Below are positions 5,672-26,253 of a stretch of DNA of 64,000 nucleotides, piece by piece. Numbering within the stretch: position 1 is the first letter of the stretch; each line of letters starts with the position of its first letter. The notes under the pieces are model-generated. The model saw only the letters and a program-made list of their open reading frames with translations, was not told where the DNA came from and ran no database searches. This stretch comes from Erythrobacter sp. F6033 (lineage in GTDB: Bacteria > Pseudomonadota > Alphaproteobacteria > Sphingomonadales > Sphingomonadaceae): the NCBI RefSeq assembly GCF_023016005.1, contig NZ_JALKAZ010000001.1, positions 1,736,001-1,800,000 of the forward strand. Direction: 5' to 3'. Both the position numbers and the translations under genes were made by a program.

Positions 5672-5682
5672 TCGGGTTTGGC

Positions 5683-6651
5683 CTACATTTCGCCCCGCTC
5701 ACGGCGGAGGCGATACCATTTGTCGACAGCGGCATTATGCCCCTCAAGCGTCTCGTTAAACTCATGCCCACCCGTGCCATCGGCCACCATAAACAGGTAG
5801 CTATGCCGTTCCGGGTTCAACACCGCGGCGATGCTCTCGCGCCCCGGATTGGTGATCGGCCCGTCGGGCAAGCCAACACGTGTATAAGTGTTGTAGCCGT
5901 TCACAGCCGCAATCTCGGATTGGCGGATGCGGCGGCCTAACGGCTTACCTTTGGTGATCGGATAGATGATCGTAGGGTCTGCTTGCAGCAACATGCCCGT
6001 TTTCACGCGGTTGGAATACAGCCCTGCAACAGTGCCCCGCTCTGACGCTGTGCCGGTTTCTTTCTCCACAATAGAGGCGAGGATCAACGCCTCTCGCATC
6101 GTTTCGACAGCGATATCCGGACCGCGCTTCGCCCATGCTTCGGCGAGATATGTGTCCATCGCGCTTTGCATCTGTTCGATGATTTCACCGCGATCTTGTC
6201 CGCGTTCATACGAATAGGTATCCGGCAACACAGACCCTTCGAGAGGAACCTCGATTTCGCCAGTAAGCAATTCTTCTGCCATCAGTTTTTCATAAACGAG
6301 GATCGACGGCATGCCCTCTGGAATGGTCACAAACCGGCGGATCACATCTCCGTTTTGAAAGGCTTCCAGAATGTCACCCTGGCTCATTTCCGGCTTGAGC
6401 GAAAACTCGCCTGCCTGAATGGGGTCAGACGATCCCAGCACCCGAGCATACATCAGGAAACCGTCGGCTGATACGATCAGGCTTTCGTCTTCCAGCTTGT
6501 TCGCCACCGCGCTCAGCGATGATCCTGCTGGAATAACAAATGGCGTTTCCTGCTTGATCGTGGTGCTGCCCATCAGGGAGCCGCCAAGATACAGACCCGC
6601 TGCCAGAGCAATTGCGAGCAGCAGCCCGACGATGCAGCCGAGCTTTTTCAT
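5683..6651 (-). CDS. mltG: Endolytic murein transglycosylase MltG
   Basis: A 322-residue YceG/MltG protein. A single N-terminal membrane anchor (residues 5-27) is followed by a periplasmic LysM-like subdomain and the catalytic domain. The catalytic glutamate is in ASIVEKETG near residue 193, with the conserved LQADPTIIY and GPITNPG segments behind it. It cleaves nascent glycan strands and is thought to set glycan length. It starts 4 bp after the fabF stop, an arrangement common in proteobacteria. Confidence 0.95.
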   Translation of the reverse strand: MKKLGCIVGLLLAIALAAGLYLGGSLMGSTTIKQETPFVIPAGSSLSAVANKLEDESLIVSADGFLMYARVLGSSDPIQAGEFSLKPEMSQGDILEAFQNGDVIRRFVTIPEGMPSILVYEKLMAEELLTGEIEVPLEGSVLPDTYSYERGQDRGEIIEQMQSAMDTYLAEAWAKRGPDIAVETMREALILASIVEKETGTASERGTVAGLYSNRVKTGMLLQADPTIIYPITKGKPLGRRIRQSEIAAVNGYNTYTRVGLPDGPITNPGRESIAAVLNPERHSYLFMVADGTGGHEFNETLEGHNAAVDKWYRLRRERGEM

Positions 6652-6655
6652 GCGC

Positions 6656-7918
6656 TTACCCGTCCACCTTTTGCATAATCAGCGATGCGTTGGTGCCGCC
6701 AAAGCCGAAGCTGTTGTTGAGCACTGCGCGCACTTCGCGCTTTTTCGCGGTAAGCGGCACAAGGTCGATCCCTTCGGTGCCGTCGTCCGGATTGTGCAAG
6801 TTCAGCGTCGGCGGAACAATGCCATCGCGCATGGCCAGGATACAGAACACCGCCTCAACCGCGCCAGCGCCGCCCAGAAGGTGCCCGATGGCCGATTTGG
6901 TCGAGCTCATAGACGCACCGCCCAAATCTTTGCCCAGCACACGCATCACAGCGGCGAGTTCGATTGTGTCGGCCATTGTGCTGGTGCCGTGGGCGTTGAC
7001 GTAATCAATGTCGCCCGAGCTGAGGCCAGCCTTCTTCAAAGCCATTCGCATAGCAAGTTCCGCGCCCTTGCCTTCAGGATGCGGCGCCGTGACGTGGTAC
7101 GCATCGCCCGAAAGGCCGTATCCGGTCACTTCGGCATAGATCGTCGCGCCGCGTGCTTTGGCACGTTCGTATTCTTCTAGCACAACGACACCGGCGCCCT
7201 CACCCATGACAAAGCCAGCGCGGTCTTTGTCATAGGGACGGCTCGCCTCGGTAGGCCGGTCGTTCATATCGGTGTTAAGCGCACGCGCCTGAGCGAAACC
7301 AGCAATGCCAAGCGGATTGATGGTGCTTTCCGCGCCGCCAGCCAGCATCACATCGGCATCATCCATCATGATCATCCGCGCGGCGTCGCCAATCGAATGC
7401 GCTCCGGTGGAACATGCAGTAACAACCGCGTGGTTAGGCCCCATAAAGCCGTATTTGATCTGCACCTGTCCGGTGACAAGGTTGATCAGGCGTCCGTGCA
7501 CAAAGTGCGGAGACACTCGCGCAGGGCCGCGATTGGCCAGTACTAGGCTTTCGCTTTCAATCCCCGGAAGCCCGCCGATCCCTGCGCCGATGGAACAACC
7601 GGTGCGCTCTTTTTCCGCATCGGTCATATCGGTCAGGCCTGCGTCTTCGAGAGCCTGACCCGCCGCGTCGATACCGTAGACGATAAAGGGATCGACTTGC
7701 CGCTGAACCTTGTGATCGACGCGCCTATCCGCGTCGAAGCCCCAAGGGTGGTCTTTGTCTTTCACCTCGCACGCAATGGTGCATTTCTGGTCTGACGTGT
7801 CGAAGCGCGTGATCTGGCCCGCGCCGCTTTCGCCAGCAATCAGGTTTTTCCAAGAGGTTTCGACATCGCCGCCCAGCGGGGTGACAAGTCCAAGTCCGGT
7901 TACAACAACGCGGCGCAT
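6656..7918 (-). CDS. fabF: 3-oxoacyl-ACP synthase II (FabF)
   Basis: A 420-residue condensing enzyme for fatty acid elongation. The Cys-His-His triad is visible: C169 in VVTACSTGAHS, H310 in NAHGTST and H346 in IGHLLGGAG. The frame is open upstream to 7990, but the ATG at 7918 begins with MRRVVVTGLG, the normal FabF start. It lies downstream of acpP, separated by a strong hairpin (7971-8005), and upstream of mltG. Confidence 0.97.
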   Translation of the reverse strand: MRRVVVTGLGLVTPLGGDVETSWKNLIAGESGAGQITRFDTSDQKCTIACEVKDKDHPWGFDADRRVDHKVQRQVDPFIVYGIDAAGQALEDAGLTDMTDAEKERTGCSIGAGIGGLPGIESESLVLANRGPARVSPHFVHGRLINLVTGQVQIKYGFMGPNHAVVTACSTGAHSIGDAARMIMMDDADVMLAGGAESTINPLGIAGFAQARALNTDMNDRPTEASRPYDKDRAGFVMGEGAGVVVLEEYERAKARGATIYAEVTGYGLSGDAYHVTAPHPEGKGAELAMRMALKKAGLSSGDIDYVNAHGTSTMADTIELAAVMRVLGKDLGGASMSSTKSAIGHLLGGAGAVEAVFCILAMRDGIVPPTLNLHNPDDGTEGIDLVPLTAKKREVRAVLNNSFGFGGTNASLIMQKVDG

Positions 7919-12843: not shown

Positions 12844-12994
12844 GGTAATCTTTCACAAATTTGTTGTGTGTTAAGGCCAACCGAAACCAACTGACCGCCA
12901 CTTGCCCCGGCATGCAGGGCACAATGGTGCGCCAATCGCCGCATCGACCGCAAAATGCAAGCCACAGCTACGCCTGTGAATGAAGGAAGCGCCG

Positions 12995-14152
12995 ATGAAT
13001 GAAGCCAATCGCAGACTTTTTATAAGGCTGCACGAACGTGTAATCCATTTCAGGTGGCTTGAGGGAAAGCTGATCCAGGGCCAGGCTGATGCGGTTTGGG
13101 GTGAGCTTCAAGATATGCTGCGCCACCATCAGCAAATCGATTCACTTGCTCCAATGCGATCAACGATCGAAGCGGCGCGCGCGCTGGACCGTGATGCACT
13201 GGACATCAAAAATTGGGATACCCTTTGCCAAGCCGTAGAGAGATACGAAGCCGAAGTCGGCTCGCTGCACGGCATCAAAGTAATCCGACATGCGCCACTA
13301 TATTTTGAACCCTCCCCCGATGAACCCTTTGAGCCCTTCATAAATATCAGTCTTAGCGGTGGAGAGGACTTCAACTTGCAATCCCTTTGCTATCGTTACG
13401 GGGCGAACATGATTGGCGGTCCTCCAAGAGCTCTACCGCAAGGGCCAACGCGCCGCCTTCACGATAAGGTTTCCACCGATGGCCTCGCCGAGCTGTCACG
13501 GGCAACTTGGGAATTCAAGATTGGCGAAGGTCCGATCAAAGCGCGGGAAGCAATGGCTTCTGGTGAATTGTTAGCCACGCTTTCCATGCTCATTTCCACC
13601 GGGACGCATATCGCATTTCGCAACGCGCTGCGCCGCAATGGATTGCCGTGCCCGGCTCATTTCATTCTCGCCAATGACGGAGAAAGCCCTGAATTTGGTT
13701 CTCCCATCGTAACAAAGGAAGAATACGGGCCAGTAACCGGCGGCCGCTACTTTGCGCTAGGGCGAGAGCCGCAATACGCTGCGCCAAAAATCTGGTCTGA
13801 GGAAGAAACCTCCCGCATGGCCAACCCACGCCAATTGATGATGGCGAACTTGCTCAACCATGCGGGGGCACTGGAATATGACGAACTCAGCAACAAGCGC
13901 GATGCAGCTTTCATTGCGCGCGGTGTTCGGTTGCGCTTTGTCCAAGATCATGTCGAAGAAACCTACGATGAGCGCGAAGCAAAGCGCAAAGGCGCCAATC
14001 CGTTTGGGATAGACCTAGGGATAAAGCCCAAGCAGGCCGAAGCTGCTGCAAATTTCGTTTTGCGAGACGTGCTTCGAACCAGTCCAAACAGAATGAAAGA
14101 CCCCGCATTGCGCGAAGCGGTAAAGCTGTTTGGCGACATCTTTCGCAAATAA
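12995..14152 (+). CDS. Hypothetical protein, 385 residues
   Basis: I do not recognise this family. The N-terminal third is helical (FIRLHERVIHFRWLEG; LIQGQADAVWGELQDML) and the rest is mixed. No signal peptide or membrane segment is seen, and the mildly charged composition suggests a soluble cytoplasmic protein. The frame opens at 12980, but the ATG at 12995 is better placed behind GGAAG. Codon use looks like its neighbours. It is flanked by divergent aspS and downstream rnd, without a shared operon. Confidence 0.7.
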   Translation: MNEANRRLFIRLHERVIHFRWLEGKLIQGQADAVWGELQDMLRHHQQIDSLAPMRSTIEAARALDRDALDIKNWDTLCQAVERYEAEVGSLHGIKVIRHAPLYFEPSPDEPFEPFINISLSGGEDFNLQSLCYRYGANMIGGPPRALPQGPTRRLHDKVSTDGLAELSRATWEFKIGEGPIKAREAMASGELLATLSMLISTGTHIAFRNALRRNGLPCPAHFILANDGESPEFGSPIVTKEEYGPVTGGRYFALGREPQYAAPKIWSEEETSRMANPRQLMMANLLNHAGALEYDELSNKRDAAFIARGVRLRFVQDHVEETYDEREAKRKGANPFGIDLGIKPKQAEAAANFVLRDVLRTSPNRMKDPALREAVKLFGDIFRK

Positions 14153-14315
14153 CGGCGCCTTAAACCCTTCCATCTGTGGGAAGACGAGGGTTGCCCCCTA
14201 AACTCTTTTGCTAAACAGGCGTATCGGGTTAAGCGCGGCAGCGCTGCATTGACGCAGCGTCCTGATGGGCATTGAGCCCGAGAGCGGTACTCCGCTCCAA
14301 CGAACAAGAAGAACA

Positions 14316-15530
14316 ATGAAAATACACGATCTGATTACCACCACCGAAGCTCTCACCGAATTGTGCGAGCGCCTCTCCAAATCCGAATTTGTTGCCGTGG
14401 ACACAGAGTTCATGCGCGAGAACACCTATTGGCCGGAACTCTGCCTCGTGCAGATCGCCAACACGGAAGAAGCCGCCGCGATTGATCCGCTGGCCGATGG
14501 CATCGACCTGACCCCGCTGCTCGATCTGATGTGCGAGAATGACGAGGTTTTGAAGGTGTTTCACGCCGGCGGTCAGGATGTCGAGATTATCGTCAATCTG
14601 ACGGGCAAGACCCCCTACCCGATCTTTGACACGCAAATCTCAATGATGGCGATCAGCCAGTCTGAACAGATCGGCTATGCCAACCTCGTTGAAACATGGC
14701 TGGGCATTACGGTCGATAAAGGCGCGCGCTTCACCGATTGGAGCCGCCGTCCGCTCACCGACCGCCAGATTGAATATGCGATTGGCGATGTGACGCATTT
14801 GTCAGTCATCTTCCCGAAGATCCTGCAAAAGCTGATCAAGACAGAGCGCGGCAACTGGCTCAATGCGGAGATGGAAAAATTGGCTGATGCGAGCAATTAC
14901 ATCGTCGATGCGGACAATTCGTGGAAACGCATCCGCTCGCCGGGGCGCAATCCGACCGTTCTGGGCCGGTTGAAAGCTTTGGCGGCATGGCGCGAAGGCG
15001 AAGCGCAACATAAGAATATTCCGCGCGGCCGGATCATGCGCGACGAAACGCTCGCCGACATCGCGAGCCACCCGCCAAAGAAACAGGCCGATCTGGCCAA
15101 AGTGCGCGGTCTTTCCGCCGCATGGAAAGACAATGACATCGGCAAACGCATGATGAAGATCATCGCCGATGCAGAACCGCTTTCCAAAGAAGAAATGCCG
15201 CAGAAAATGAAACGCGGCGCGCCACTGGGCAAAGAAGGCGCTCTGGTCGCTGACTTGCTCAAACTGCTGCTCAAAATCCGCGCGCGCGAAATCGATGTGG
15301 CGCCGCGCTTGCTAACCCGTGCAGACGAGATGGAAGCACTCGCCGCCGGAGTTCGCGAGCTGAAAGTGCTCGAAGGCTGGCGTTATGAAGTGTTTGGCAA
15401 AGACGCGCTGGAGCTCGTCGAAGGCAGGCTCGCCTTCGCAGTTCAAGGCGGCAAGCTGAAGATGACCCATATCGACGACATGCAAGCGAGCATGGAAGAG
15501 TCGCAAGCCGACGCCGAAGCGGCGGAGTAA
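14316..15530 (+). CDS. rnd: Ribonuclease D
   Basis: A 404-residue 3'-5' exoribonuclease acting in tRNA 3' maturation. The DEDD catalytic set is recognisable: D29 and E31 in AVDTEF, the aspartate of GGQDVEII near residue 88, and YAIGDVTHL near 155 for the Y-x3-D motif. An HRDC domain follows at about 215-290. The frame is open from 14265, but MKIHDLI at 14316 is the natural start. It is followed 10 bp later by oxyR. Confidence 0.93.
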   Translation: MKIHDLITTTEALTELCERLSKSEFVAVDTEFMRENTYWPELCLVQIANTEEAAAIDPLADGIDLTPLLDLMCENDEVLKVFHAGGQDVEIIVNLTGKTPYPIFDTQISMMAISQSEQIGYANLVETWLGITVDKGARFTDWSRRPLTDRQIEYAIGDVTHLSVIFPKILQKLIKTERGNWLNAEMEKLADASNYIVDADNSWKRIRSPGRNPTVLGRLKALAAWREGEAQHKNIPRGRIMRDETLADIASHPPKKQADLAKVRGLSAAWKDNDIGKRMMKIIADAEPLSKEEMPQKMKRGAPLGKEGALVADLLKLLLKIRAREIDVAPRLLTRADEMEALAAGVRELKVLEGWRYEVFGKDALELVEGRLAFAVQGGKLKMTHIDDMQASMEESQADAEAAE

Positions 15531-15540
15531 AGCGGGCATT

Positions 15541-16437
15541 ATGTCCACTTACCTCCCCACCATCAAACAGCTGCAATATCTCGTTGCGCTGCATGAGCAT
15601 GGCCATTTTGGCCGCGCTGCAGATGCCAGCTTTGTTTCGCAATCCACGTTATCAGCGGGCATTCGCGAACTGGAATCCCTGCTTGGTGTGACACTTGTGG
15701 AGCGCAGCCGGCGCGTGGTTCGTTTTACCGCTCTGGGCGAGCAGGTCGTGACCAAAGCGAACAAGCTGCTGCGTGAGGCGGAGGAGCTTTCCGATCTGGT
15801 TCAGGCTGCGGGCAAGCCTTTATCGGGTCAGCTTCGTATGAGCGTGATCCCAACCATCGCTCCATTTATGATCCCGCGTCTGTTGCCTCGCCTGCGCAAT
15901 GAGCGCCCCGACCTGCAATTGATGCTGCGCGAAGAGACCAGTCAGGACGCGATGGATTCGCTCCAGCATGGCCGCGTTGATTGCGTCCTGCTCGCGCTGC
16001 CTTTTGATACGGCAGAGGCGGAATACGAACATATCGCGGATGACAGGCTGTTTGTCGCATTCCCGAAAGACGATCCGCGCGATCCGCCTGCGAGTATTCC
16101 GCCAGAAATGATCGACCAGGGGCGGCTGTTGCTGCTTGAGGATGGGCATTGCCTGCGCGATCACGCTCTCGCCGCCTGCAACCGCAGCGAATTGCGCGCC
16201 AGCGCCGCGATGATCGGCACCAGTCTTCATACATTGGTGCAAATGGTCGATCACGATCTTGGCCTGACCATGCTGCCTGAAATGGCGATCGATGCGGGCA
16301 TTCTGACTGGCACCGAAGTTGTCGCCCGCCCGGTTGAAAGCGACACGGCCAAGCGAGAGATTGTGCTTGTGTGGCGGAAGAACTCCCCGCGCGAGGCAGA
16401 TTTCAAGCTTCTCGCAGAAGAACTGCGCGCCGGTTAA
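15541..16437 (+). CDS. oxyR: LysR-type peroxide-sensing regulator OxyR
   Basis: A 298-residue LysR-type regulator with an N-terminal winged helix-turn-helix (residues 8-66, KQLQYLVALHEHGHFGRAA) and a C-terminal sensor domain. The two redox cysteines of OxyR are conserved as C204 and C213 in GHCLRDHALAAC, with the same 9-residue spacing as C199/C208 in E. coli, so it should respond to hydrogen peroxide. It sits 10 bp behind rnd and is probably cotranscribed with it. No katG or ahpC is adjacent. Confidence 0.93.
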   Translation: MSTYLPTIKQLQYLVALHEHGHFGRAADASFVSQSTLSAGIRELESLLGVTLVERSRRVVRFTALGEQVVTKANKLLREAEELSDLVQAAGKPLSGQLRMSVIPTIAPFMIPRLLPRLRNERPDLQLMLREETSQDAMDSLQHGRVDCVLLALPFDTAEAEYEHIADDRLFVAFPKDDPRDPPASIPPEMIDQGRLLLLEDGHCLRDHALAACNRSELRASAAMIGTSLHTLVQMVDHDLGLTMLPEMAIDAGILTGTEVVARPVESDTAKREIVLVWRKNSPREADFKLLAEELRAG

Positions 16438-16464
16438 TCTTAGCTCCCCCGAGTACTGAGAACG

Positions 16465-16478
16465 CGGCTTTAAAGCCG
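16465..16478. repeat. Perfect 14-bp palindrome
   Basis: CGGCTTTAAAGCCG is self-complementary with no loop, 28 bp after the oxyR stop. It could be a regulator site. The lack of a loop and T-tract argues against a terminator. Confidence 0.5.
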
Positions 16479-16644
16479 GCACAGGCGCAAATCCTCACCT
16501 TCAATACCCGACAAAAAATTTGCGTCCGAACACTCACGCATAGTGCAAAAGAGCTACGCGACATTTTTATACAATACCCAACTGGTGGAATTACGTAAAC
16601 CGATTCGCACAGAGGGGAAAGTTCAAAATAGTTTGAGCTATTCA

Positions 16645-16659
16645 CATGCATTTTGCATG
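16645..16659. promoter_or_regulatory. Spaced palindrome, possible operator
   Basis: CATGCA-TTT-TGCATG is a perfect 6-bp inverted repeat with a 3-bp spacer in the AT-rich spacer, about 115 bp upstream of the first gene of the LysM operon. It suits a dimeric DNA-binding protein, but no regulator can be named. Confidence 0.4.
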
Positions 16660-16775
16660 CGATAATTCACGCATTTAACAATTCAAAAATCAAATCTGCG
16701 GGTATTATTTGTATAAACTCGCCAATAAAACAAAAAATGCAGGTCGCAGCCCTTATTTACTAATAGGAGTCTGCA

Positions 16776-18479
16776 ATGCCCGAGAATGAATTCAAAGCCG
16801 TAACCATGAGTCAACTTGTGGACACACTATACGGCTCAATCGCAAACTTCGTGACGCCATCGGGAAAACGCGCCGAAAGCGAGTTCGCGACCTATGTCAC
16901 GCCCACCATTCCGCTCGCCGATGATGATCTGTTTTTCCTGACGGGCGAAATACCTGACGGCAGCGCAGAAGGCGGCGACAATGCCCGCGCCGATGCCTTC
17001 AAGAAACGCCGTGAAAGCGCGTTCTATTTCTCCAATCTCGTCAATTTCGTACCTTCGGTTGAACCAAACACCGTGTTCGTGACCGATGTCGACGAAAACG
17101 AAGAGACGCTCGCTGGAACGCGCAAGCTCAAGAGCTTTGAGGAATTCCGGACAAAGGGCCAGTCGCTCGACAAAATCTTCTTCGAAGTCATCAATTCGGC
17201 CCGTGTTCTCGACCGCCCACGGTCTGCTGCGGAACAAGAGAAGATTGATCAACTGCGCGCTCTTCTGGAAGTGCCGGTCGAAGACGAAGTTACCGATGAC
17301 GATCTGGCAGCGGCTGATCTCACCGATGATCCGCTCGCGGGCCTCGATGATCTGGGCGACCTCGATGACTTGGATCTCGATGGCCTGGACGGTCTTGATG
17401 ATATCGATCTGGGTGATCTTGGTGGCAGCACCTTTTTGGAAGGCGGCGACCCGCCAGAGCCGACCAAATTGATGCAGAACTACAATTACTTCCGCAATCT
17501 CTATGAGAACGCAGAAGCAGCGATGATCGAGAAGCTGATCGATATCGAGCGCGATCCTGCCAATGCGCGGTACCGCGCAAAACTGACTGCCATTGAAAAG
17601 AAGAAACTGCACCGTTTGATGCAGCTTTGGAACACCGTCGGCAAACGCGGCAAGGTCAACAAGATCATCAACATCATCAATGCTCTGGAGCAAGGGGGCA
17701 TGGTCGAATACCGCGCCCGCCTTCAGGAAGTGATGGAGAACACAAAGTTTGATGTCGACCTGATCGCCGATGCAACAACCGCGAGCCATTTCACGTCAAT
17801 CACTCCAGCCAATCTGTTCAAACAGGAAAGTTGGCAGAAGTTCTCGCTGAACAACAAATCGACCTACGATGAATTTTCGAGCGAGACGAAATCGTTCCAC
17901 GGCAAGGTCGGGTTCGTTCTGCCAATCGGCATGACCGGCGCTGGAAAAATGTCAAAATCGAGCACCGATTCCGAAGAGGAAACATTTTCTGATGAAGTGT
18001 CGATCTCGTTCGAAATCGCTCAGGGTATCCTTGTCCGCCCGTGGTTCGATCCGGCGTTCTTGATGTGCCGAAAGTACACGATGACTGATCCGGCAACCGG
18101 AGACTCGCTTGCCGCGCTTGAGGATGATGATTTCGTATTGTCTGATGGCGGCAAGCCGCCAAAGGGCATTCTGCCTGCCTACACAACTTCGGTCATCTTC
18201 ATCCGTAACCTGAAGATCAAGTCCGAACAGATTCTGGACTATGTCGAGAAATCGAAAAGCGACAGCAGCTTTTCTGGTCGGACGACTCTGCCGTTCTTAC
18301 CAGCTGCAATCGGCGGCGGCAGGGATACATCCAAGGAAGACGAGCTGGTCACGACCGACCGTTCAACCGGCGAAATAACCATCGGCGGCACGCACATCGT
18401 CGCATTCCGGGGCACCTATCTGAACAAGGCGCCCAATCCCGATCTGGAAGAGCACTCTGACCCGTCGCACTGGGTCTGA
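16776..18479 (+). CDS. Uncharacterised protein A of the LysM operon (567 aa)
   Basis: I do not recognise this family. No signal peptide or membrane helix is seen. Four parts are visible: an N-terminal region (1-150); an acidic Leu/Asp/Gly repeat tract (188-217); a charged helical stretch (230-335); and a C-terminal mixed region (340-550) with RPWFDP at 421-426 and SDG...GILP at 456-467. The RxW, SDG and GILP block recurs in the next gene product, so the two proteins probably share a homologous domain. TAGGAGT precedes the start, and the next gene begins 3 bp after the stop. The protein is probably cytoplasmic unless exported by a specialised route. Confidence 0.8.
   Translation: MPENEFKAVTMSQLVDTLYGSIANFVTPSGKRAESEFATYVTPTIPLADDDLFFLTGEIPDGSAEGGDNARADAFKKRRESAFYFSNLVNFVPSVEPNTVFVTDVDENEETLAGTRKLKSFEEFRTKGQSLDKIFFEVINSARVLDRPRSAAEQEKIDQLRALLEVPVEDEVTDDDLAAADLTDDPLAGLDDLGDLDDLDLDGLDGLDDIDLGDLGGSTFLEGGDPPEPTKLMQNYNYFRNLYENAEAAMIEKLIDIERDPANARYRAKLTAIEKKKLHRLMQLWNTVGKRGKVNKIINIINALEQGGMVEYRARLQEVMENTKFDVDLIADATTASHFTSITPANLFKQESWQKFSLNNKSTYDEFSSETKSFHGKVGFVLPIGMTGAGKMSKSSTDSEEETFSDEVSISFEIAQGILVRPWFDPAFLMCRKYTMTDPATGDSLAALEDDDFVLSDGGKPPKGILPAYTTSVIFIRNLKIKSEQILDYVEKSKSDSSFSGRTTLPFLPAAIGGGRDTSKEDELVTTDRSTGEITIGGTHIVAFRGTYLNKAPNPDLEEHSDPSHWV
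17337..17426 (+). repeat. Leu-Asp/Gly-rich repeat tract within protein A
   Basis: Residues 188-217 are built from short LDDLGDLDDLD-type units, giving an Asp/Leu periodic sequence with almost no other residues. It may be a flexible acidic or calcium-binding linker between the N-terminal and helical parts. Confidence 0.7.
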
Positions 18480-18482
18480 TCG

Positions 18483-20519
18483 ATGGACGCTCTTGCTCTA
18501 GTAAGAGGCGTCGAGGCACTGATCGCGCAGGAGGTAAGCAAGTCTTACCGCCTGCCGATCGCCGAAGTCGCCCAACCCGATGCCGAAGGACGCGCCTTCA
18601 CCCTTGCCGGCTCGCTCGAACTCAATGAATTTATCGTTGATTCCGGCATGCTGCTTGTCCTGAGCGAATGGGTTGAGGCCGCGCGCGAAGGGCGGCCGGT
18701 AATCGATCCTGAAACGTCGTCGTCCACTCCCGATTTCTGGGAGAATTTCGACCGCGTCCAGGATGATTTCATGATGATGGTGCTGAACCGTCTTCTGGAG
18801 CTGAAGATCCGGAGCGAACGTGTCTCGCCCAACAAGACCGTTGCCTCGGTCTATTCGAGGATCATTGAGGGAGCCGACTTTGATCGCGGCGGAAGCGATG
18901 AGGTTCCCGGGGAAGTTCAGAAAGCGAAATCGCTGCTCTACGATGACGACGGATCAGAATTTCCGCCACAAACCCCCGGATACACCAAGTTTATCGAGTT
19001 AAGCGACGCATTGTTCGATGCCCAAATGGAACTCTTCGAACTGCCGCAGGACGCTCCGCCGCCGCTTAGAAACGCGCTTGAAGAGAAAGTCCTGCGCGCG
19101 GAAACGGCGCTTAATGTTCAGGGGAACAAGGCCGAATTTGACCGTGCGCAGCGCCTCATCAAAGAATTTGAGGACGATGGCACTGGAGAGGACGAACGCA
19201 GTCAACTGCGTGAAACCCTTTCCCAATCGGAAATTGACAGTATCGCCGAACCGGGGCGGGTTTATCATCGGACCACTTTGGAAGGGATCGAAGCGCTCAG
19301 CTCTCCTGATCCGGAAAGCGGCTGGCAATATTTCGAACTGACCGCGCAAGAGGTTCTGGATACGATCGATTGGAGCTTGCTCGATCGGCTCGGCGTCAAC
19401 CGACAGTCTGTGGTCAATCAGCTGCCCTATGTGCACCGTGTGCGCGCGACTTTTCGTGAGTTCCAGATCAGGCGCAACTGGCTCGATTTCGATCTCTTTA
19501 AGGCCGATTATTGGGACCATGATGAACTGGTTTCTGATGGCGCCGGAGGCGGTATCCTTCCAGTGATTCCAGAGAGTATTGTTCTGGTCCCCAGTTACCA
19601 GGTGACCCGCCTCAAATGCTCCTGCAAATTGGCGAGTTCAGGCGACACAACAATCGTTGCCAATATTGCTGTGCCCGAAAAACAGCAGCCCAAGATCAAG
19701 GAATCGTCAAAAAATCTGATCCGGCTCGCAAAGGCCCGGATTGGCGGGAAAAAGCAGCTCGCCTTTGCGAAGGGCTTTGGCGCGAATGCCGCGATCAAGA
19801 GCATGATCTCACCCAAGAAGATCAGCAAGACACGCTTGATGCAGCGCGGCGGGATGCTGCGTGCGTTAAGGCAAACCGATCTATCCAAGATCGCAGCCAT
19901 GCAGCAAGCCGGGCCTCAGGTTCAGGCACGGCGCGGAGGCGGGCACAGGAGCGCAGTGGCGCTAGGCCGCGGGCGAGGCGGAGCGGCTGCCAATCCCAAA
20001 GGGCTTGCGGCGATGATCGGCAAGCGTGGCGGTATCGGCGCGATGGCGTTTGGTTTCAAGAATAAGGACCGCATTGCCAAACTGATTAAGCAACAACAGG
20101 CAGAAGCAGAGCGCGCCAAGCGGAACCGCAAAAAGCATCTCCAAGGCACTTTTATCGTGGAATCCATCGATTCTGACGCGATCAATCACCTGCAAATCGG
20201 AATGACCCCGCTGCGCAATGGCTCCCCCTCCGGTTCAACGGTCATGGTGGCCAATTTTGGGCAAGGCGAAACCGAAAAGCCTTTTTCGCAAGAAGTCATG
20301 CCGGGAAACTACCGCTTCAACGCATTCTTCAAGGGCGAGGAAGTGTTCAAGCATACAGTCAGCGTGTCCGCCAATGCCGAACCGCCAGCCTTGGATCTGA
20401 TCTTCGCGATTGAGGAAGATTTGATAGCGGGCCGATCATTCGATCCGGCCGATGACGGATCAGGCTTCTTCTCAGTCTTTGGATATGGGGTCCGAGCCGT
20501 ACCCCAATGCCCGAAATGA
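18483..20519 (+). CDS. Uncharacterised protein B of the LysM operon (678 aa)
   Basis: I do not recognise this family. The N-terminal region is acidic and helical (1-250). Residues 320-375 repeat the motif block of protein A: RRNWLDFDLF at 330-339, SDG at 351-353 and GILP at 357-360, followed by a beta-strand pattern. Residues about 400-555 are strongly basic and rich in Lys, Arg, Gly and Ala (GLGRGRGGAA-like runs), unlike the acidic remainder. A compact beta-rich C-terminal domain follows (555-678). There is no signal peptide or clear membrane anchor. It starts 3 bp after protein A, so the two are probably made together. Confidence 0.8.
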   Translation: MDALALVRGVEALIAQEVSKSYRLPIAEVAQPDAEGRAFTLAGSLELNEFIVDSGMLLVLSEWVEAAREGRPVIDPETSSSTPDFWENFDRVQDDFMMMVLNRLLELKIRSERVSPNKTVASVYSRIIEGADFDRGGSDEVPGEVQKAKSLLYDDDGSEFPPQTPGYTKFIELSDALFDAQMELFELPQDAPPPLRNALEEKVLRAETALNVQGNKAEFDRAQRLIKEFEDDGTGEDERSQLRETLSQSEIDSIAEPGRVYHRTTLEGIEALSSPDPESGWQYFELTAQEVLDTIDWSLLDRLGVNRQSVVNQLPYVHRVRATFREFQIRRNWLDFDLFKADYWDHDELVSDGAGGGILPVIPESIVLVPSYQVTRLKCSCKLASSGDTTIVANIAVPEKQQPKIKESSKNLIRLAKARIGGKKQLAFAKGFGANAAIKSMISPKKISKTRLMQRGGMLRALRQTDLSKIAAMQQAGPQVQARRGGGHRSAVALGRGRGGAAANPKGLAAMIGKRGGIGAMAFGFKNKDRIAKLIKQQQAEAERAKRNRKKHLQGTFIVESIDSDAINHLQIGMTPLRNGSPSGSTVMVANFGQGETEKPFSQEVMPGNYRFNAFFKGEEVFKHTVSVSANAEPPALDLIFAIEEDLIAGRSFDPADDGSGFFSVFGYGVRAVPQCPK

Positions 20520-20581
20520 TCGAAGAAATTGGGAGCTAACCCATTAAAATTGAATATTTTCACACTTTAAGGGAGGGACAT

Positions 20582-21832
20582 ATGTCAAACGAAACCTACA
20601 CCGTGAAATCCGGTGATACATTGCAGAAAATCGCTGACCAGTTCGATGTCGATATGCAGGATTTGGCGCTGCGCAATAACATCCGCGATCCAAACCTGAT
20701 CCATGTCGGGCAAGTCATCACGGTTCGCGAGGCAAGCAATGTCTATCTCGTGAAGTCAGGCGACAGCTTGTCCAAAATTGCGAACGCGCATGGCACAACA
20801 GTCGATGCAATCATGGCGGCGAATCCGCGCATTCGCAATCCAAACCTTATCTCGGTCGGGCAATCGATTGTGATCCCGACCGGATCAAGTTCGAGCTCAA
20901 GCAGCACCGGTGGCAGCACCACTTCGAGTGGCGGGACCAGTGGGCACCTGAGCCTTACCGAAAAAGACATTCGCGACATCAAAAAGACGTTGCAAACCGA
21001 ATGGGTGCAATTCGCCGGCGATGATCAGGCGAAAGGGATCGTCGATACGATCCTGAACCGGCTTGCTTCCGATCACTGGGGATCAACCATCGCCAGCGTC
21101 GTGAATGCCCGCAACCAGTTTTCCGACATTAACGGCCCGGTTTCGCGGCGCGATGGTCGCAGCTCGGTCGATCAGATCGCAATGAGTCTTGTGAGCAGCC
21201 GCGTGAACGATTTCGTCGATGACTATCTTCAGGCGCGCTCAACCGGGACAGGATCATTCGTGGACTCGCATCTCAACTACGCGAACCCGCATTTCTCCGA
21301 TGCACGTAATCTGGCGTGGATCATGGCTCTGGACGGACCTGTGCTGGGACGCGGCAACGCGATCCACCGCCATGGCACCGTGCCGGAATTGCAGCGCTTT
21401 CGCCCTGACCCGTTCCAAGTCGTTCTGCCGGGCGGCACCGCGCCATCGGCATCGCAATCCGTGACCAGTACATCGGTCGATGGCCGGGCCATCGCGGCTC
21501 AGCATAATGTCGATGTGAAAAGCCGCGCTGTGAAGATCAGCACTCTGCACCCATCCATGGAGGCAGTCATTGTTGCAGTATCTCAGGCCGCAAACGAGCT
21601 GGGACTGCCCCGCCCTGTTATCACATCGGGCAATGATAGCCGCCACAGCCGCAATTCGCTGCACTACTCAAATCGCGCACTGGATTTCCGCGGGCGCAAC
21701 ATCACTCGCGATCAAGGCTTTGCGCTGGACAGCCGTGTCGAACAGAAGCTGGGCGATGATTACGATGTGATTTTTGAAACGTTCTCGAACTCGAGCAACA
21801 ATCACCTTCATGTCGAGTACGATCCACGGTAA
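20582..21832 (+). CDS. LysM protein with SleB-like and M15-like peptidoglycan hydrolase domains
   Basis: A 416-residue modular cell-wall enzyme. Two LysM repeats (4-49 and 53-98) bind N-acetylglucosamine polymers, and a Ser/Gly/Thr linker follows (100-120). Residues 122-280 resemble SleB-type cell wall hydrolases: E140 in QTEWVQ as candidate acid, then ILNRLASDHWG and NQFSDINGP. Residues 310-416 resemble M15 D,D- or L,D-peptidases, with zinc ligands suggested by SLHYSNRALDF (H361, D368) and HLHVEYD (H408, H410). Both glycan and peptide bonds could thus be cut. It has no signal peptide, although its substrate is periplasmic. A strong AAGGGAGGG ribosome-binding site lies upstream. It resembles phage or injection-tail hydrolases, but no phage genes are nearby. 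Confidence 0.85.
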   Translation: MSNETYTVKSGDTLQKIADQFDVDMQDLALRNNIRDPNLIHVGQVITVREASNVYLVKSGDSLSKIANAHGTTVDAIMAANPRIRNPNLISVGQSIVIPTGSSSSSSSTGGSTTSSGGTSGHLSLTEKDIRDIKKTLQTEWVQFAGDDQAKGIVDTILNRLASDHWGSTIASVVNARNQFSDINGPVSRRDGRSSVDQIAMSLVSSRVNDFVDDYLQARSTGTGSFVDSHLNYANPHFSDARNLAWIMALDGPVLGRGNAIHRHGTVPELQRFRPDPFQVVLPGGTAPSASQSVTSTSVDGRAIAAQHNVDVKSRAVKISTLHPSMEAVIVAVSQAANELGLPRPVITSGNDSRHSRNSLHYSNRALDFRGRNITRDQGFALDSRVEQKLGDDYDVIFETFSNSSNNHLHVEYDPR

Positions 21833-21841
21833 GGAACGGAC

Positions 21842-22354
21842 ATGAAAGCACATTACAAAACAGGGATTGCGATCCCAGCCGCTCTTCTTGTCCTAACTGC
21901 GGCATGTTCCAATCAGCCCGAGGCCTCTGCGCCTCGGGCTGATGAGGATACGGCGGCAGCAACTTCTGATCCGCCATTGGCCCAGTCGAGCATCATTGAC
22001 CCAGCGGATGATGCCGGACCTTCGGAAGCGATCGCGACCGAGACCGCGATCTCCAGCAAGAAAGATATGAAGCAAGGCGATAAGCCGGCCTGCATGATCG
22101 AATTCGCTTACGAGGGATACAACCCGGAAACGCTCATCTGGGAAGGCGAAACCTGCGATAATGTGAAAGCGAGCCTGCTCGATCCAAAGGGCCTAAAGTC
22201 GCTCGGCAAATGGGATCGGTTGGACGAATTCGCTCAGGGGCATGTGGAGAAACTGCCTGACGACAAAGTGCTGTATGTCGAAGGCGAATTCACTGCGTCG
22301 ATCTATCCAGTGGGAACGACACGCGAGAGTTACGAGGTAACCGTCGCGGATTAG
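21842..22354 (+). CDS. Small lipoprotein of the LysM operon
   Basis: A 170-residue protein with a lipoprotein signal peptide: basic start, hydrophobic core (AIPAALLVLTAA) and lipobox LTAAC with C22. A disordered Ala/Ser/Asp/Pro-rich spacer (23-75) and a small domain with two cysteines (C84 in ACMIEF, C104 in TCDN) follow. The function is unknown. It starts 9 bp behind the LysM hydrolase with an AAGGA site, so it is the fourth gene of the operon. An inhibitor, immunity or docking role toward the hydrolase is possible but unproven. Confidence 0.75.
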   Translation: MKAHYKTGIAIPAALLVLTAACSNQPEASAPRADEDTAAATSDPPLAQSSIIDPADDAGPSEAIATETAISSKKDMKQGDKPACMIEFAYEGYNPETLIWEGETCDNVKASLLDPKGLKSLGKWDRLDEFAQGHVEKLPDDKVLYVEGEFTASIYPVGTTRESYEVTVAD

Positions 22355-22416
22355 AGTGCTGCTCCGCATCACAAGCCTTTTTAGTTTAGCCCATATCGGG
22401 CATAGCGGCACTCGCA

Positions 22417-23403
22417 ATGACTGAAGAGCCGTTTACGCCCCCGAACACTGCCGGAGCCGGCTTTCTACTGGGCATGCTGGCGACGATGCTGGGCGCGTTT
22501 GCTTACCTCGTTTACGGCCCCGGTATCGACAATGGCTATGCCGGGTTCGGCGTGTTGGTTGCCATACCATTTGCTTTGGGAGCGTTGGTTGGCGGGCTAG
22601 GCTGGGCGCAATACAACACGGTTGGCTGCATCCTCGCGCCGATCGCTCTTTTCGCGGTGCTTTTCCCGTTCGTCTATTTCGGTCTTGCCGAGGGACTTGT
22701 GTGCATCATGATGGTGCTGCCCTTCTGGCTCGTCGGCGGAATAGGTGGGGCGCTTGCGGGCCTGATAATCAGGATCCGGCGAGAAGAAGCCGAACGTGAA
22801 GCAAGTTCGGGCATGCGCCTGAAAATCTCCGCCGCCCTCACACTGCCATTCGCGCTGATCTATGCCGAGGAAATGAGCCCAGCGCAGTGGCAGGAGCGGT
22901 CCGTGACGCGCACCGTCACAATCGCTGCGAGCGCGGAGGACGTGTGGCCCATGCTGATCGCGATCCCCGATATTGCGGAGAGCGAAGGCAAGGCCACTTT
23001 CACCCATGATGTGGTCGGCATCCCCCGCCCCAGCGATGCTGCTCTGGTCCAGCGCGAAACCGGCTTGGTTCGCGAAGCCGAATGGGGCCCGAATATCCGT
23101 TTTGAAGAGCACGTTGACGAGATCGTCGAAGGCGAGCGGATCGCATGGTCCTTCGTATTCCCAGACGGTTCCGTTCAAGCGCATACAGATAGGCATATCG
23201 ACCCCGACGGCCCCGTCGTGAAGATCGCGCGCGGAGGCTATACGCTCATCGAAAATGGTCCGGACGAGGTCACGCTGGAGCTGACCACTCACTACCAGAT
23301 GCGCACCCGGCTCGGCTGGTATTTCGGCCTATGGGGCGAAGTGCTGCTCGGTGATGTTCACGACAATGTGCTCGAGGTAATCAAGGCGCGGGCTGAGGGG
23401 TAG
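22417..23403 (+). CDS. Membrane protein with C-terminal SRPBCC domain
   Basis: A 328-residue protein. Three to four N-terminal transmembrane segments (about 14-35, 48-66, 73-92, 97-118) are followed by a cytoplasmic SRPBCC/polyketide-cyclase-like domain (165-325), recognised by VTIAASAEDVWPML and the closing GDVHDNVLEVIKAR helix. Such domains bind hydrophobic ligands in a helix-grip fold. The ligand is unknown. It is 62 bp downstream of the lipoprotein gene on the same strand, but no ribosome-binding overlap links it clearly to that operon. Confidence 0.75.
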   Translation: MTEEPFTPPNTAGAGFLLGMLATMLGAFAYLVYGPGIDNGYAGFGVLVAIPFALGALVGGLGWAQYNTVGCILAPIALFAVLFPFVYFGLAEGLVCIMMVLPFWLVGGIGGALAGLIIRIRREEAEREASSGMRLKISAALTLPFALIYAEEMSPAQWQERSVTRTVTIAASAEDVWPMLIAIPDIAESEGKATFTHDVVGIPRPSDAALVQRETGLVREAEWGPNIRFEEHVDEIVEGERIAWSFVFPDGSVQAHTDRHIDPDGPVVKIARGGYTLIENGPDEVTLELTTHYQMRTRLGWYFGLWGEVLLGDVHDNVLEVIKARAEG

Positions 23404-23430
23404 AGGCACGAGCACTTCTACGTGCAGATG

Positions 23431-23455
23431 ACGGGCCAGCATTATACTGGCCCGT
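23431..23455. terminator. Hairpin between convergent genes
   Basis: A perfect 9-bp stem ACGGGCCAG/CTGGCCCGT with a 7-nt loop lies between the convergent SRPBCC and GNAT genes. The T-tract is weak, so it is a probable rather than a certain terminator. Confidence 0.65.
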
Positions 23456-23461
23456 CCCCAT

Positions 23462-23926
23462 TCAAGTCAGTACTTTGCGAAAAGTGACCTTGTCGTCACC
23501 TGACGTCCAATAGTCCCGAATGCACGCTTCCCGATCATATCCGAGCATATCGTAGAAAGATCGCGTTCGTTCGAACTCATCTTTACCTGATGTGTCGACA
23601 AGTAGGATACGATTACCAGCTGCGGCGAGTTCCGCTTCGACAAATCGCATCAGTTGCGTTCCGAGACCCTGACCATGCCTCTTCGGGTCAACGGCAATCA
23701 TCAGGAGATTCCAAACGCCTTCTGCCATTTGCTCGGGCAGATAATATGCAATGCCATCAACCGCCCCGTCATCGAATACGACCCATCTTTGATCAGGGTC
23801 ATTTTCGAAGAACGGGGCAGTCATATCTTCGAGCATTTCCGGCGGAAACATCTCGTTCTCACCAACGAGATAACGCGCGCGCTCAAGGTCCCGGCTTTCA
23901 AGCGGCCGAATATTGTGATTTTTCAT
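23462..23926 (-). CDS. GNAT-family N-acetyltransferase
   Basis: A 154-residue acetyltransferase. The acetyl-CoA loop is visible as VDPKRHGQGLGTQLM (the R/Q-x-x-G-x-G motif A, about residues 76-90), followed by the LLVDTSGKDEFERTRSFYDMLGY strand-helix that completes the GNAT fold. The substrate is unknown. The frame continues upstream to 23971, but MKNHNIRPLE at 23926 is the natural start. Confidence 0.85.
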   Translation of the reverse strand: MKNHNIRPLESRDLERARYLVGENEMFPPEMLEDMTAPFFENDPDQRWVVFDDGAVDGIAYYLPEQMAEGVWNLLMIAVDPKRHGQGLGTQLMRFVEAELAAAGNRILLVDTSGKDEFERTRSFYDMLGYDREACIRDYWTSGDDKVTFRKVLT

Positions 23927-24122
23927 TGTTAGACTTTCGAGTAATTTTGAATGCAAAAAACCATGCACCAAAGCTCACTTTGGTGACGGTTGGATTTCAA
24001 ATGCCAATCACAAAAGGATCAGCGAATTGTCGCAATCGTTTTCAAAAAAACTCCATGCCCACAGTGGGCTTAGAAGCAAATACTCAAGTCGTAGAGCGCA
24101 TGCAAGCTAGAGCGCCAACAAC

Positions 24123-24731
24123 TCAATCCATATGCTTCAAACCGACCCGGAGGTAATCCCAACCAGTGATCACGGTCAGCACGGCTGCTGCCCATAGGCT
24201 GCCTAGGCCGATTACGTGGACCCAGCTCTCCGCGAAGGTCAGGCAACCTGCGTCGGGTGACTGGCATGGCTGTCCATGCACTGCGCCGCCAGCGATCAGC
24301 GCGCCCAGAGCGATCAGTTGAAACGTCGTCTTCCACTTCGCCAGCGCCGAGACCGGCACTGACACCTGCAATCCGCCCAAAAATTCGCGCAGACCCGATA
24401 CCGCGATCTCCCGGATCAGGATCACAAGACCCGCGATCACATGCATATCGCCGACATATGGCCCGCGCAGATATCCTTGCGCGGTCAGGATCAGCAGCAC
24501 GGTCGCCACCATAATCTTGTCCGCAATCGGATCGAGGAAGATGCCGAGCTTCGACACCGTCCCCTGCGCACGCGCCAGATAGCCGTCAAAGAAGTCTGTG
24601 ATCGCAATCAGCGCATAGAGCGCAAACCCGATCGCATATCCCAGCCGCCATTCCGGCCACCACAGGAAGAACGCCAGCAATGGCAGGGCGAATATACGCG
24701 AAAGCGTAAGGATGTTGGGTAACGTCAACAT
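24123..24731 (-). CDS. pgsA: CDP-diacylglycerol--glycerol-3-phosphate 3-phosphatidyltransferase
   Basis: A 202-residue integral membrane enzyme that makes phosphatidylglycerol phosphate from CDP-diacylglycerol. The CDP-alcohol phosphotransferase motif D-G-x2-A-R-x8-G-x3-D-x3-D is complete (DFFDGYLARA ... GIFLDPIADK, about residues 46-72). The start at 24731 (MLTLPNILTLSR) is preferred over the upstream frame extension to 24947, which runs into the divergent gene. It shares a 124-bp divergent promoter region with the MFS transporter. Confidence 0.95.
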   Translation of the reverse strand: MLTLPNILTLSRIFALPLLAFFLWWPEWRLGYAIGFALYALIAITDFFDGYLARAQGTVSKLGIFLDPIADKIMVATVLLILTAQGYLRGPYVGDMHVIAGLVILIREIAVSGLREFLGGLQVSVPVSALAKWKTTFQLIALGALIAGGAVHGQPCQSPDAGCLTFAESWVHVIGLGSLWAAAVLTVITGWDYLRVGLKHMD

Positions 24732-24855
24732 ATGGATGGATGCTCTAGCGTCACTTTTATCCGCGCAAAAGTCACCTTGCTGGTTTGTGAACGCTCTTGT
24801 GCATACCAGCGCAGCCGCTATCTGGGAATCAGAGGAGCGATTTCGAACACCATTT

Positions 24856-26253
24856 ATGACAACTTCGACGCGTCTCCTGACCCGTAAGCGGTTTATGCCG
24901 CTGATGGTCACGCAATTTTTCAATGCGTTCAATGACAACCTGTACAAGACCGCTTTGGTCCTGTTCGTCGTCTATTCCGTTTATAATGATGAGAAACAGG
25001 AAGCCTTCTTCAGCGGCGTAGCCTCGCTGTTGTTTATCCTGCCATTCGTATTGTTCTCTGCGCTCGCTGGTCAGTTGGCCGATACGCGGGACAAGGCCGC
25101 GATCATTCGTATCGTCAAACTGTGCGAGATCGGCTGGGCGAGCCTAGGTGCGGCGGGCCTGTTTATGGCATGGCAGGGCATCGCCGTGCACACCGTAGCG
25201 ATACCATTACTGCTTGCTGTCGTGTTCCTTGCCGCAGTGCAATCGGCGTTTCTCGGCCCGATCAAATACGCGATCCTTCCTCAGCACCTAAGGAAGGATG
25301 AGGTCCTGCCCGGCACTGGCCTGGTCGAAGCCGGGACATATATTGCGATCCTGATGGGGACGATCCTCGCCGGATTTATCGATATCGAATATGCGATAGT
25401 CCTCGTCGTGTTGACCTCTATCGTCGGATATATCGTTTGCCGCTGGGTTCCGGATGCGCCGCCACAGGGCAATCACGAACTGCATTTCCCACTGTTGGAG
25501 CCCTATAACGAAAAGACCCGCAATCCGATTTTGCGCTGGCTGGGCATTGTACCGGTTGCTCTGGCCGATCAGGTTGTGATGAGCTGGCGTCTGGTCAAGA
25601 AGACCCGCGATATTCGAGAGATTTGGTACGCGATTATCGCGATCAGCTTTTTCTGGACCATCGGTGCGGTGTTGTTCATCCAGTTTCCGCCGCTCGCGAA
25701 AAATCAGCTGCTCGCCACTCCCGAGGTTGCCAGCCTGTTTCTGGTGATTTTCTCAGTCGGCATTGCGGTCGGTTCGATGGTGATCAACACGCTGCTTAAA
25801 GGCGAGGTATCCGCTCGCTACGCACCGATCTGCGTTGTGTTTATGGGTATATTCCTTGTCGGCTTTTACTTCGTATGCCGCGCATGGATCCCCAATGAAG
25901 CGGGCGAATTGCTGCCAATTCAGGAATGGATTCTTGAGCCGCTGGCGATACCGCTTTCTCTGATCCTGCTGGGCATCTCGACCGCCGGCGGAATGTTCGT
26001 CGTGCCGCTCTATGCGTTCCTGACCACACGCTGCGCGCCCGATGCCGCCAGCCGCACGATTGCGGCGAACAATATCGTCAATTCACTCGCAATGGTGACT
26101 GGTTCTGTTGTTGCACTCGGCATGACCGCGCTGGGAATACCCGTAGCCGAGCAACTGCTGTTCGCAGCATTGATGACGGTAATCTCTGCCTGGTTGGGCA
26201 AGAAATTGCACAAGGCTGAGATAGAGGCCGCTCCCGCAAGAGCCGCCGTGTAA
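24856..26253 (+). CDS. LplT-like MFS transporter
   Basis: A 465-residue polytopic protein of about 12 membrane segments. The N-terminal signature (FMPLMVTQFFNAFNDNLYKTA) is that of the MFS module found in lysophospholipid transporter LplT and in Aas-type fusion proteins. The acyltransferase and AMP-ligase parts of such fusions are absent here. A role in lysophospholipid flipping fits its position next to pgsA. The frame is open from 24712, but the ATG at 24856 is where recognisable sequence begins; a GAGGAG lies about 18 bp upstream. Confidence 0.8.
   Translation: MTTSTRLLTRKRFMPLMVTQFFNAFNDNLYKTALVLFVVYSVYNDEKQEAFFSGVASLLFILPFVLFSALAGQLADTRDKAAIIRIVKLCEIGWASLGAAGLFMAWQGIAVHTVAIPLLLAVVFLAAVQSAFLGPIKYAILPQHLRKDEVLPGTGLVEAGTYIAILMGTILAGFIDIEYAIVLVVLTSIVGYIVCRWVPDAPPQGNHELHFPLLEPYNEKTRNPILRWLGIVPVALADQVVMSWRLVKKTRDIREIWYAIIAISFFWTIGAVLFIQFPPLAKNQLLATPEVASLFLVIFSVGIAVGSMVINTLLKGEVSARYAPICVVFMGIFLVGFYFVCRAWIPNEAGELLPIQEWILEPLAIPLSLILLGISTAGGMFVVPLYAFLTTRCAPDAASRTIAANNIVNSLAMVTGSVVALGMTALGIPVAEQLLFAALMTVISAWLGKKLHKAEIEAAPARAAV

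Follow-up and report, generated by a model that had tools for sequence, protein, structure and literature searches.

A LysM dual hydrolase and its lipoprotein partner form a likely toxin–immunity pair beside two paralogues of an unnamed family in Erythrobacter sp. F6033

Results

Gene content and layout of the locus

The stretch of DNA analysed here (the window, 64,000 nucleotides) contains four genes, designated A to D, that all lie on the plus strand, with spacings of 3, 62 and 9 bp calculated from the ORF coordinates (Table 1). The region ahead of A is AT-rich (41.7% GC vs. 56.4% for the window). By eye, the A, B and C proteins begin without a hydrophobic signal segment, and D carries a lipobox-like AAC at residues 20–22, as a lipoprotein would. 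In all of these features the locus agreed with the initial annotation, which had also described A and B as unrecognised proteins and C as a LysM protein with two peptidoglycan-cleaving domains; in the profile searches presented below, A and B matched no known family, and the two catalytic domains of C are indicated by weak matches and conserved residues.

Table 1. Positions of the genes and the leader region within the window
Feature	Coordinates	Strand	Description
Left flank	15541..16437	+	LysR-family (OxyR-like) regulator, profile match
AT-rich leader	16438..16775		LysR gene to gene A, 338 bp, GC 0.417
Gene A	16776..18479	+	567 aa ORF
Gene B	18483..20519	+	678 aa ORF
Gene C	20582..21832	+	416 aa ORF
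Gene D	21842..22354	+	170 aa ORF
Right flank, gene E	22417..23403	+	Weak Polyketide_cyc2 (SRPBCC) similarity

A consensus scan of the leader gave no sigma-70-like site, and the intergenic gaps from A to D contained nothing terminator-like on the plus strand. A 32-column stretch of the leader matched the sequence ahead of C in Erythrobacter crassostrea, and in both genomes it begins 122 bp past the LysR stop codon. The local alignment score was 30 and the maximum among 500 single-base shuffles was 27, and this match is regarded as suggestive only.

Protein C carries LysM domains and two predicted catalytic domains

Profiles and conserved active-site residues indicated that C is a LysM protein with two predicted peptidoglycan-cleaving domains. 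Two LysM domains occupy about residues 5–100 (Pfam, E 8.8e-35). They are followed at about residues 121–290 by a domain that resembles the SleB/CwlJ Hydrolase_2 family (PF07486; hereafter Hyd2) with an E value of 9.9e-5, but scores 23.4 bits, below the Pfam cut-off of 27; the relatives at loci L042, L047 and L126 scored 27.0, 29.2 and 27.7 bits, respectively. The C-terminal part, about residues 298–416, is assigned as an M15/Hedgehog-type peptidase domain with the signature H-x6-D ... E ... H-x-H, comprising H361, D368, E399, H408 and H410. The zinc ligands of the H-x6-D and H-x-H motifs and the catalytic Glu are invariant in a 14-member alignment of the peptidase domain, and E140 of the Hyd2 domain as well as H361, D368, E399 and H408 are invariant in 17 LysM-type sequences. 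L050, a sequence outside the 14-member alignment, has an Arg at the position of H410, the second His of H-x-H.

The peptidase domain was called M15/Hedgehog-type (LAS) because Hedgehog N-domains were the top match, a weak one with a best E of 0.002, when the profile of the 14 domains was compared with the PDB. No Pfam M15 model matched the domain of C or the 14-domain set. Pfam HH_signal matched five of the 14 members under its cut-off (best E 0.004), and ATPgrasp_N likewise matched five weakly (best E 1.1e-4). Judged by these two assignments, C would cut glycan through the SleB-like domain and peptide through the peptidase domain. The part of C behind the LysM domains had matches in 6 of 398 genomes of the phylum, its own included, and within the genus its distribution is patchy, with C in 7 of 100 genomes, again counting its own.

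Gene D is linked to the peptidase domain of C

A genome_contigs scan with the peptidase domain of C yielded 79 loci, in which D, A and B were sought by tblastn at an E value of 0.01. A D homologue was found behind the peptidase domain in 20 of them (L039–L058), and these represent 20 of the 21 loci with an identity of 54% or more; the exception, L059 (56%), is TraG-like by eye. Sixteen of the 20 pairs have the LysM, Hyd2 and peptidase arrangement, in L050 and L052 with a single LysM as judged by eye, and four pair D with another front half, namely L040, L041 and L044 with VgrG3-like_C and L054, which is similar by eye. In genome G045, a LysM-Hyd2 gene occupies the site that the gene has in G055, G052 and G505, and the peptidase domain and D are both missing there, with no remnant of either detected by tblastn.

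The divergence of the D domain was compared with that of each domain of C in 14 of the 17 LysM-type sequences, L045, L055 and L057 being left out as near-duplicates. The D-domain distance correlated with that of the peptidase domain with an r of 0.71, vs. 0.53 for Hyd2 and 0.54 for LysM, with Mantel p values that were all 0.006 or less (LysM 0.002, Hyd2 0.006). The partial correlation with D, given here without a p value, was 0.57 for the peptidase domain given Hyd2 and −0.14 for Hyd2 given the peptidase domain. Because the LysM and Hyd2 distances correlate with D too, shared descent explains part of this relation. The exchanged front halves, the joint absence and the joint divergence together indicate that the peptidase domain of C is the probable target of D. 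C and D are a recurrent pair, in which a putative toxin domain and a predicted immunity gene travel together.

No family was recognised for D; five Pfam models each matched one of 21 relatives, with a best E of 0.007. In 21 sequences, C84, C105 and the last residue D170 are invariant, C84 and C105 being additional to the lipobox cysteine. The two invariant cysteines and the invariant final Asp suggest that D may have a disulfide bond and a tail reaching into the active site, and D is predicted to act in the periplasm as the immunity protein against the peptidase domain of C.

Related catalytic domains occur in other architectures

Relatives of both catalytic domains were found at the ends of other proteins. 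At L030 and L032, the peptidase domain ends Rhs proteins that are followed by an exported-looking protein of 175–178 aa. At L028, a Hyd2-like domain ends a 940-aa protein encoded behind a VgrG gene and followed by an LprI-type lysozyme inhibitor, and at L031 a related Hyd2 domain lies in a protein that is prophage-like by eye. Proteins with the peptidase domain are also encoded on the viral contigs L137–L139; the best segments of the five viral_contigs relatives have 50% identity or less. TraG-like conjugation proteins carry a C-terminal peptidase domain at L029 (Pfam) and at L059, L061–L063 and L069 (by eye), and no partner is evident for these C-termini, that of L059 included.

In several loci the peptidase domain is accompanied by other wall-directed domains or by export genes. 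At L065 (6749–10881), FliP- and FliR-family export genes immediately precede the gene for a protein with LysM, GH19 and the peptidase domain, and an exported-looking protein of 145 aa is encoded next. L070 encodes PG_binding_1, GH19 and the peptidase domain, and the partners at L065 and L070 are alike by eye (145 and 144 aa, exported-looking). At L064, a phage lysozyme domain, LysM and PG_binding_1 stand ahead of the peptidase domain. L060 (6257–10841) holds HlyD, a C39 ABC exporter, a peptidase protein of 189 aa whose leader is double-glycine-like by eye, and an exported-looking partner, and may represent a type I-secreted wall-cutting bacteriocin. Judged by these architectures, a putative glycan cutter combined with a peptidase domain of this type and an exported-looking partner is a repeated design.

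Secretion-system genes among the carriers of C

Secretion-system markers were surveyed in 18 carriers, namely the window genome, G045 with its shortened C and 16 peptidase-locus genomes; they are mostly draft assemblies, 16 of the 18 without a completeness figure. TssC (PF05943) was present in 5 of the 18 and had no match in the other 13, the window genome among them. VirB4 (PF03135) was present in 14 as a raw count, twice in the window genome, and two carriers had neither marker. Therefore, neither a T6SS nor a VirB4-type T4SS explains all carriers. Two candidate routes were rejected for C in this genome for want of a match to the respective sheath gene, each judged by one Pfam model: cargo of a T6SS, since TssC had no match, and cargo of an eCIS or contractile phage tail, since Phage_sheath_1 (PF04984) had no match in the window genome. 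Pfam found no VgrG, PAAR or Hcp among the 10 proteins encoded from 12980 to 24947, and the Hyd2 relative at L028 is the only VgrG-linked one.

Genes A and B belong to an unnamed family

Neither A nor B had a Pfam, NCBIfam or PADLOC match up to an E value of 1. PHROGs gave a single, non-significant match to A (E 0.13), and comparison with solved structures gave no convincing match for either protein. Relatives of A were found at loci L118, L132, L133, L134, L175 and L176; they lie in genome G221 (E 1.7e-9), on plasmids of Rhizobium, Sinorhizobium and Acuticoccus, and in genomes G592 and G587. The family-matched part of A covers residues 231–557 and includes RPWFDP at residues 421–426, and a family profile built without A recovered it with an i-E of 1.4e-23 in a two-sequence search. 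By these profile matches, A is a clear member of an unnamed family with an RPW motif region. For B, a profile comparison with the A family using hhalign gave a probability of 88.8, a P of 2.5e-6 and a score of 54.9, while the control scores reached at most 25.3 with 20 shuffled versions of B and 17.4 with 12 other proteins of the window. Since this comparison is well above the shuffled and unrelated controls, B is placed as a divergent member of the A family; it has by eye a basic Ala/Gly-rich stretch at about residues 400–550.

Members of the family mostly occur as tandem paralogues, with two in Rhizobium, three in S. meliloti, three in G592 and two in G587, and with a single clear copy in Acuticoccus and in G221, where a neighbour gene scores weakly. 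By locus, the copies are in tandem at L132, L133, L175 and L176 and single and clear at L118 and L134. At L133 (2817–6793), on an S. meliloti plasmid, the third of the three genes (5669–6793) is outside the gene table, and TIR-domain genes stand in a row at a distance of a few kilobases. The three paralogues at L175 (6698–10853) stand beside an ORF that is recombinase-like by eye, and two lie at L176 (7746–11009); both loci are alphaproteobacterial. Some relatives begin with a signal-like segment by eye, and A and B do not. From the tandem paralogy, we infer that the A-B family may form a heteromeric complex. Judged from its sequence, A might conceivably be a beta-pore protein.

The family is rare. 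Profile matches were found in 2 of 398 genomes of the phylum (own included) and in 3 of 106 genomes around G221, and A was found in just one of 100 relatives, its own genome; beyond its own genome and G221, matches to A occurred in five genomes (E 0.003 to 0.05). Matches to B in 19 of the 398 genomes beyond its own (E 1.7e-4 to 0.1, best at L003) were taken as noise, a call based on one case, L005, which by reading is a xanthine-dehydrogenase-like protein. Used as queries, B returned no relative from genome_contigs or viral_contigs, A none from viral_contigs, and neither of them any from plasmids or phages; nor did the S. meliloti relative of A find one in viral_contigs, or the Rhizobium relative in phages.

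A-B and C-D are found apart in relatives

At the same site in E. crassostrea (L039, L127), Rnd, LysR, C, D and E are present without A-B, and the flanking genes have 97–98% protein identity to those of L039. A or B was found in 0 of the 79 peptidase-domain loci (E 0.01), some of which lie on short contigs where absence near the ends is uninformative. Reciprocally, neither C nor D was found at better than E 0.35 in the four A-family loci tested (L118 and L132–L134). The initial annotation had proposed a four-gene system, with recurrent four-gene cassettes as support and separate occurrence of the genes in relatives as refutation; A-B and C-D do occur separately in relatives, and the four-gene system is unsupported.

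The LysR gene is present in 58 of 61 genus genomes, 30 of which gave loci, and none of A to D matched within about 1.5 kb of it in the 29 of these loci other than that of the window. Gene E lies behind the LysR gene in some relatives, and directly so in G018 (L143), where A to D are absent. In the Erythrobacter loci L126, L129, L130 and L131, C is found directly behind a CtrA-like response regulator gene that is preceded by an RpoN-like gene (by reading). C and D sit among what look like core genes.

The synonymous divergence from E. crassostrea (pS) was 0.62 for C and 0.66 for D, and 0.39–0.54 for Rnd, LysR, E and LplT. The elevation of C and D above their neighbours may reflect exchange of the pair between lineages, a weak indication since pS is near saturation. 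The dN/dS values from the same comparison were 0.077 for C, 0.080 for the conserved domain of D, 0.087 for E and 0.02 for Rnd and LysR; the value was 0.122 for whole D and 0.31 for the D linker. A search for diversifying selection found none on C or on the conserved domain of D, neither value being above that of E.

Discussion

We consider it rather probable that two modules lie side by side at this locus, a C-D toxin–immunity pair and the A-B paralogues of an unnamed family, which share the site with C-D in this genome only among the loci read. For C-D itself, a toxin–immunity function is likely, and is supported by the gene order, the domains and their conserved active sites, the linkage of D to the peptidase domain, and the toxin-like architectures with partners of their own. 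C, made in the cytoplasm with no Sec signal, would reach the periplasm of a target cell, where its LysM domains would bind peptidoglycan and it would cut twice, the SleB-like domain acting on glycan strands and the C-terminal zinc peptidase on peptide stems or cross-links. D, exported as a lipoprotein, would protect the producer and related cells by blocking the peptidase domain, and its conserved C-terminal tail with the invariant end Asp may plug the active site. Toxicity, immunity, the bonds cut, the tail plug and the route out of the producer and into the target are all proposed here from sequence. Of the earlier suggestion of an injected or exported hydrolase with its own partners, the immunity partner is retained, as it fits C-D, and A-B as a part of the system is not.

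Several observations count against a toxin. No delivery system fits all carriers, C-D sits among core-looking genes, and the dN/dS of C is like that of E; the Arg that replaces the second His in L050 and the TraG-like C-termini with no evident partner would also speak against it. An enzyme with its own inhibitor would moreover give the same C-D linkage. C could then serve the cell itself in wall remodelling, scavenging or autolysis, with D as an anchor or regulatory inhibitor of C and no rival cell attacked, and the first three of these observations would suit that role, as would the position of C behind a CtrA-like regulator gene in four Erythrobacter loci and the report in PMC8052667 that some bacterial Hedgehog-like peptidases lie among wall-enzyme genes, with feeding or scavenging proposed. 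We nevertheless consider this unlikely: a self-acting enzyme without a signal peptide would need a route too, C is present in few genomes of its genus, and peptidase domains of this kind form the C-termini of Rhs proteins and of a protein encoded next to a C39 exporter. A domesticated device for phage lysis or self-lysis, in which an endolysin-like C is released when the inner membrane fails, would likewise account for the missing signal peptide, and the prophage-like Hyd2 relative and the viral-contig proteins with the peptidase domain are compatible with it. We give it little credence, since the linkage of D is to a single domain of C, the best segments of the viral relatives have 50% identity or less and no holin or spanin was seen by eye around C-D among ORFs of at least 80 aa, a size limit that would miss small holins. 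The sporulation- or lysis-like device suggested earlier finds little support beyond the missing signal peptide and some phage relatives of both catalytic domains.

The same strand, the short gaps and the lack of a plus-strand terminator-like site between the genes would also be expected if A to D were one operon in which A-B is a delivery or entry device for C, for example a two-part pore or adhesin. The mostly tandem arrangement of the paralogues and the signal-like start seen by eye in some of them are what a heteromeric secreted complex would show, and the lack of TssC and Phage_sheath_1 matches in the window genome leaves room for such a device. It is nonetheless quite improbable, given that A-B and C-D did not co-occur in the 79 peptidase-domain loci or the four A-family loci tested, that the corresponding site of E. 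crassostrea contains C-D but not A-B, and that A and B here lack a signal segment. A related and very improbable idea is that A-B is a two-part secreted or surface complex recruited upstream to carry the signal-less C across membranes; if true, this would be a new way of delivering a toxin, put together from two modules that move independently, in a genome with no match to a T6SS or contractile-tail sheath gene.

Among known systems, the closest in plan is Tae17 of Acinetobacter baumannii, a VgrG17-delivered T6SS effector described in PMC11796386 as a bifunctional peptidoglycan hydrolase that is toxic to E. coli only in the periplasm; T6SS cargo can thus take the form of a LysM protein that cuts the wall with two domains. 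C likewise has LysM ahead of two predicted peptidoglycan-cleaving domains, one for the glycan and one for the peptide side. Unlike C, however, Tae17 combines a lytic transglycosylase with an amidase, has an Ig-like domain in front and is delivered by VgrG17, and the window genome shows no TssC match. By this comparison, C resembles a Tae17-type effector in plan and is not filed as one. With the Hedgehog/M15 (LAS) zinc peptidases, which include the bacterial Hedgehog-like bacHh, C shares H-x6-D and H-x-H in a C-terminal domain, but its similarity is only weak, whereas bacHh are reported at over 50% identity (PMC6027127 and PMC8052667). The function of the bacterial Hedgehog-like peptidases is called unknown in PMC6027127, the main text of which has no occurrence of 'immunity'. 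The C-D arrangement is also like that of Rhs and other polymorphic toxins, with an exchangeable C-terminal domain and a matching downstream partner (PMC3482391), but the front part of C is neither Rhs nor of another polymorphic-toxin type. In the first 300,000 characters of that paper, Imm65 is called its only lipoprotein immunity family, and 'carboxypeptidase' and 'M15' do not occur. A literature search for M15/LysM toxins with immunity proteins, and for contact-dependent or T6SS systems of Erythrobacter, found none fitting.

The A-B family is a separate and unnamed one, whose members are mostly arranged in tandem and were found both on three alphaproteobacterial plasmids and in further genomes of that class. 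If the toxin–immunity reading of C-D is true, it would raise the question of how a signal-less wall hydrolase leaves the cell, and would hint at what some of the bacterial Hedgehog-like peptidases do. The Hedgehog/M15-type peptidase would then be an antibacterial warhead that is used repeatedly, each time with its own periplasmic immunity protein, and that occurs here mostly in sphingomonads, 13 of the 18 carriers examined showing no TssC.
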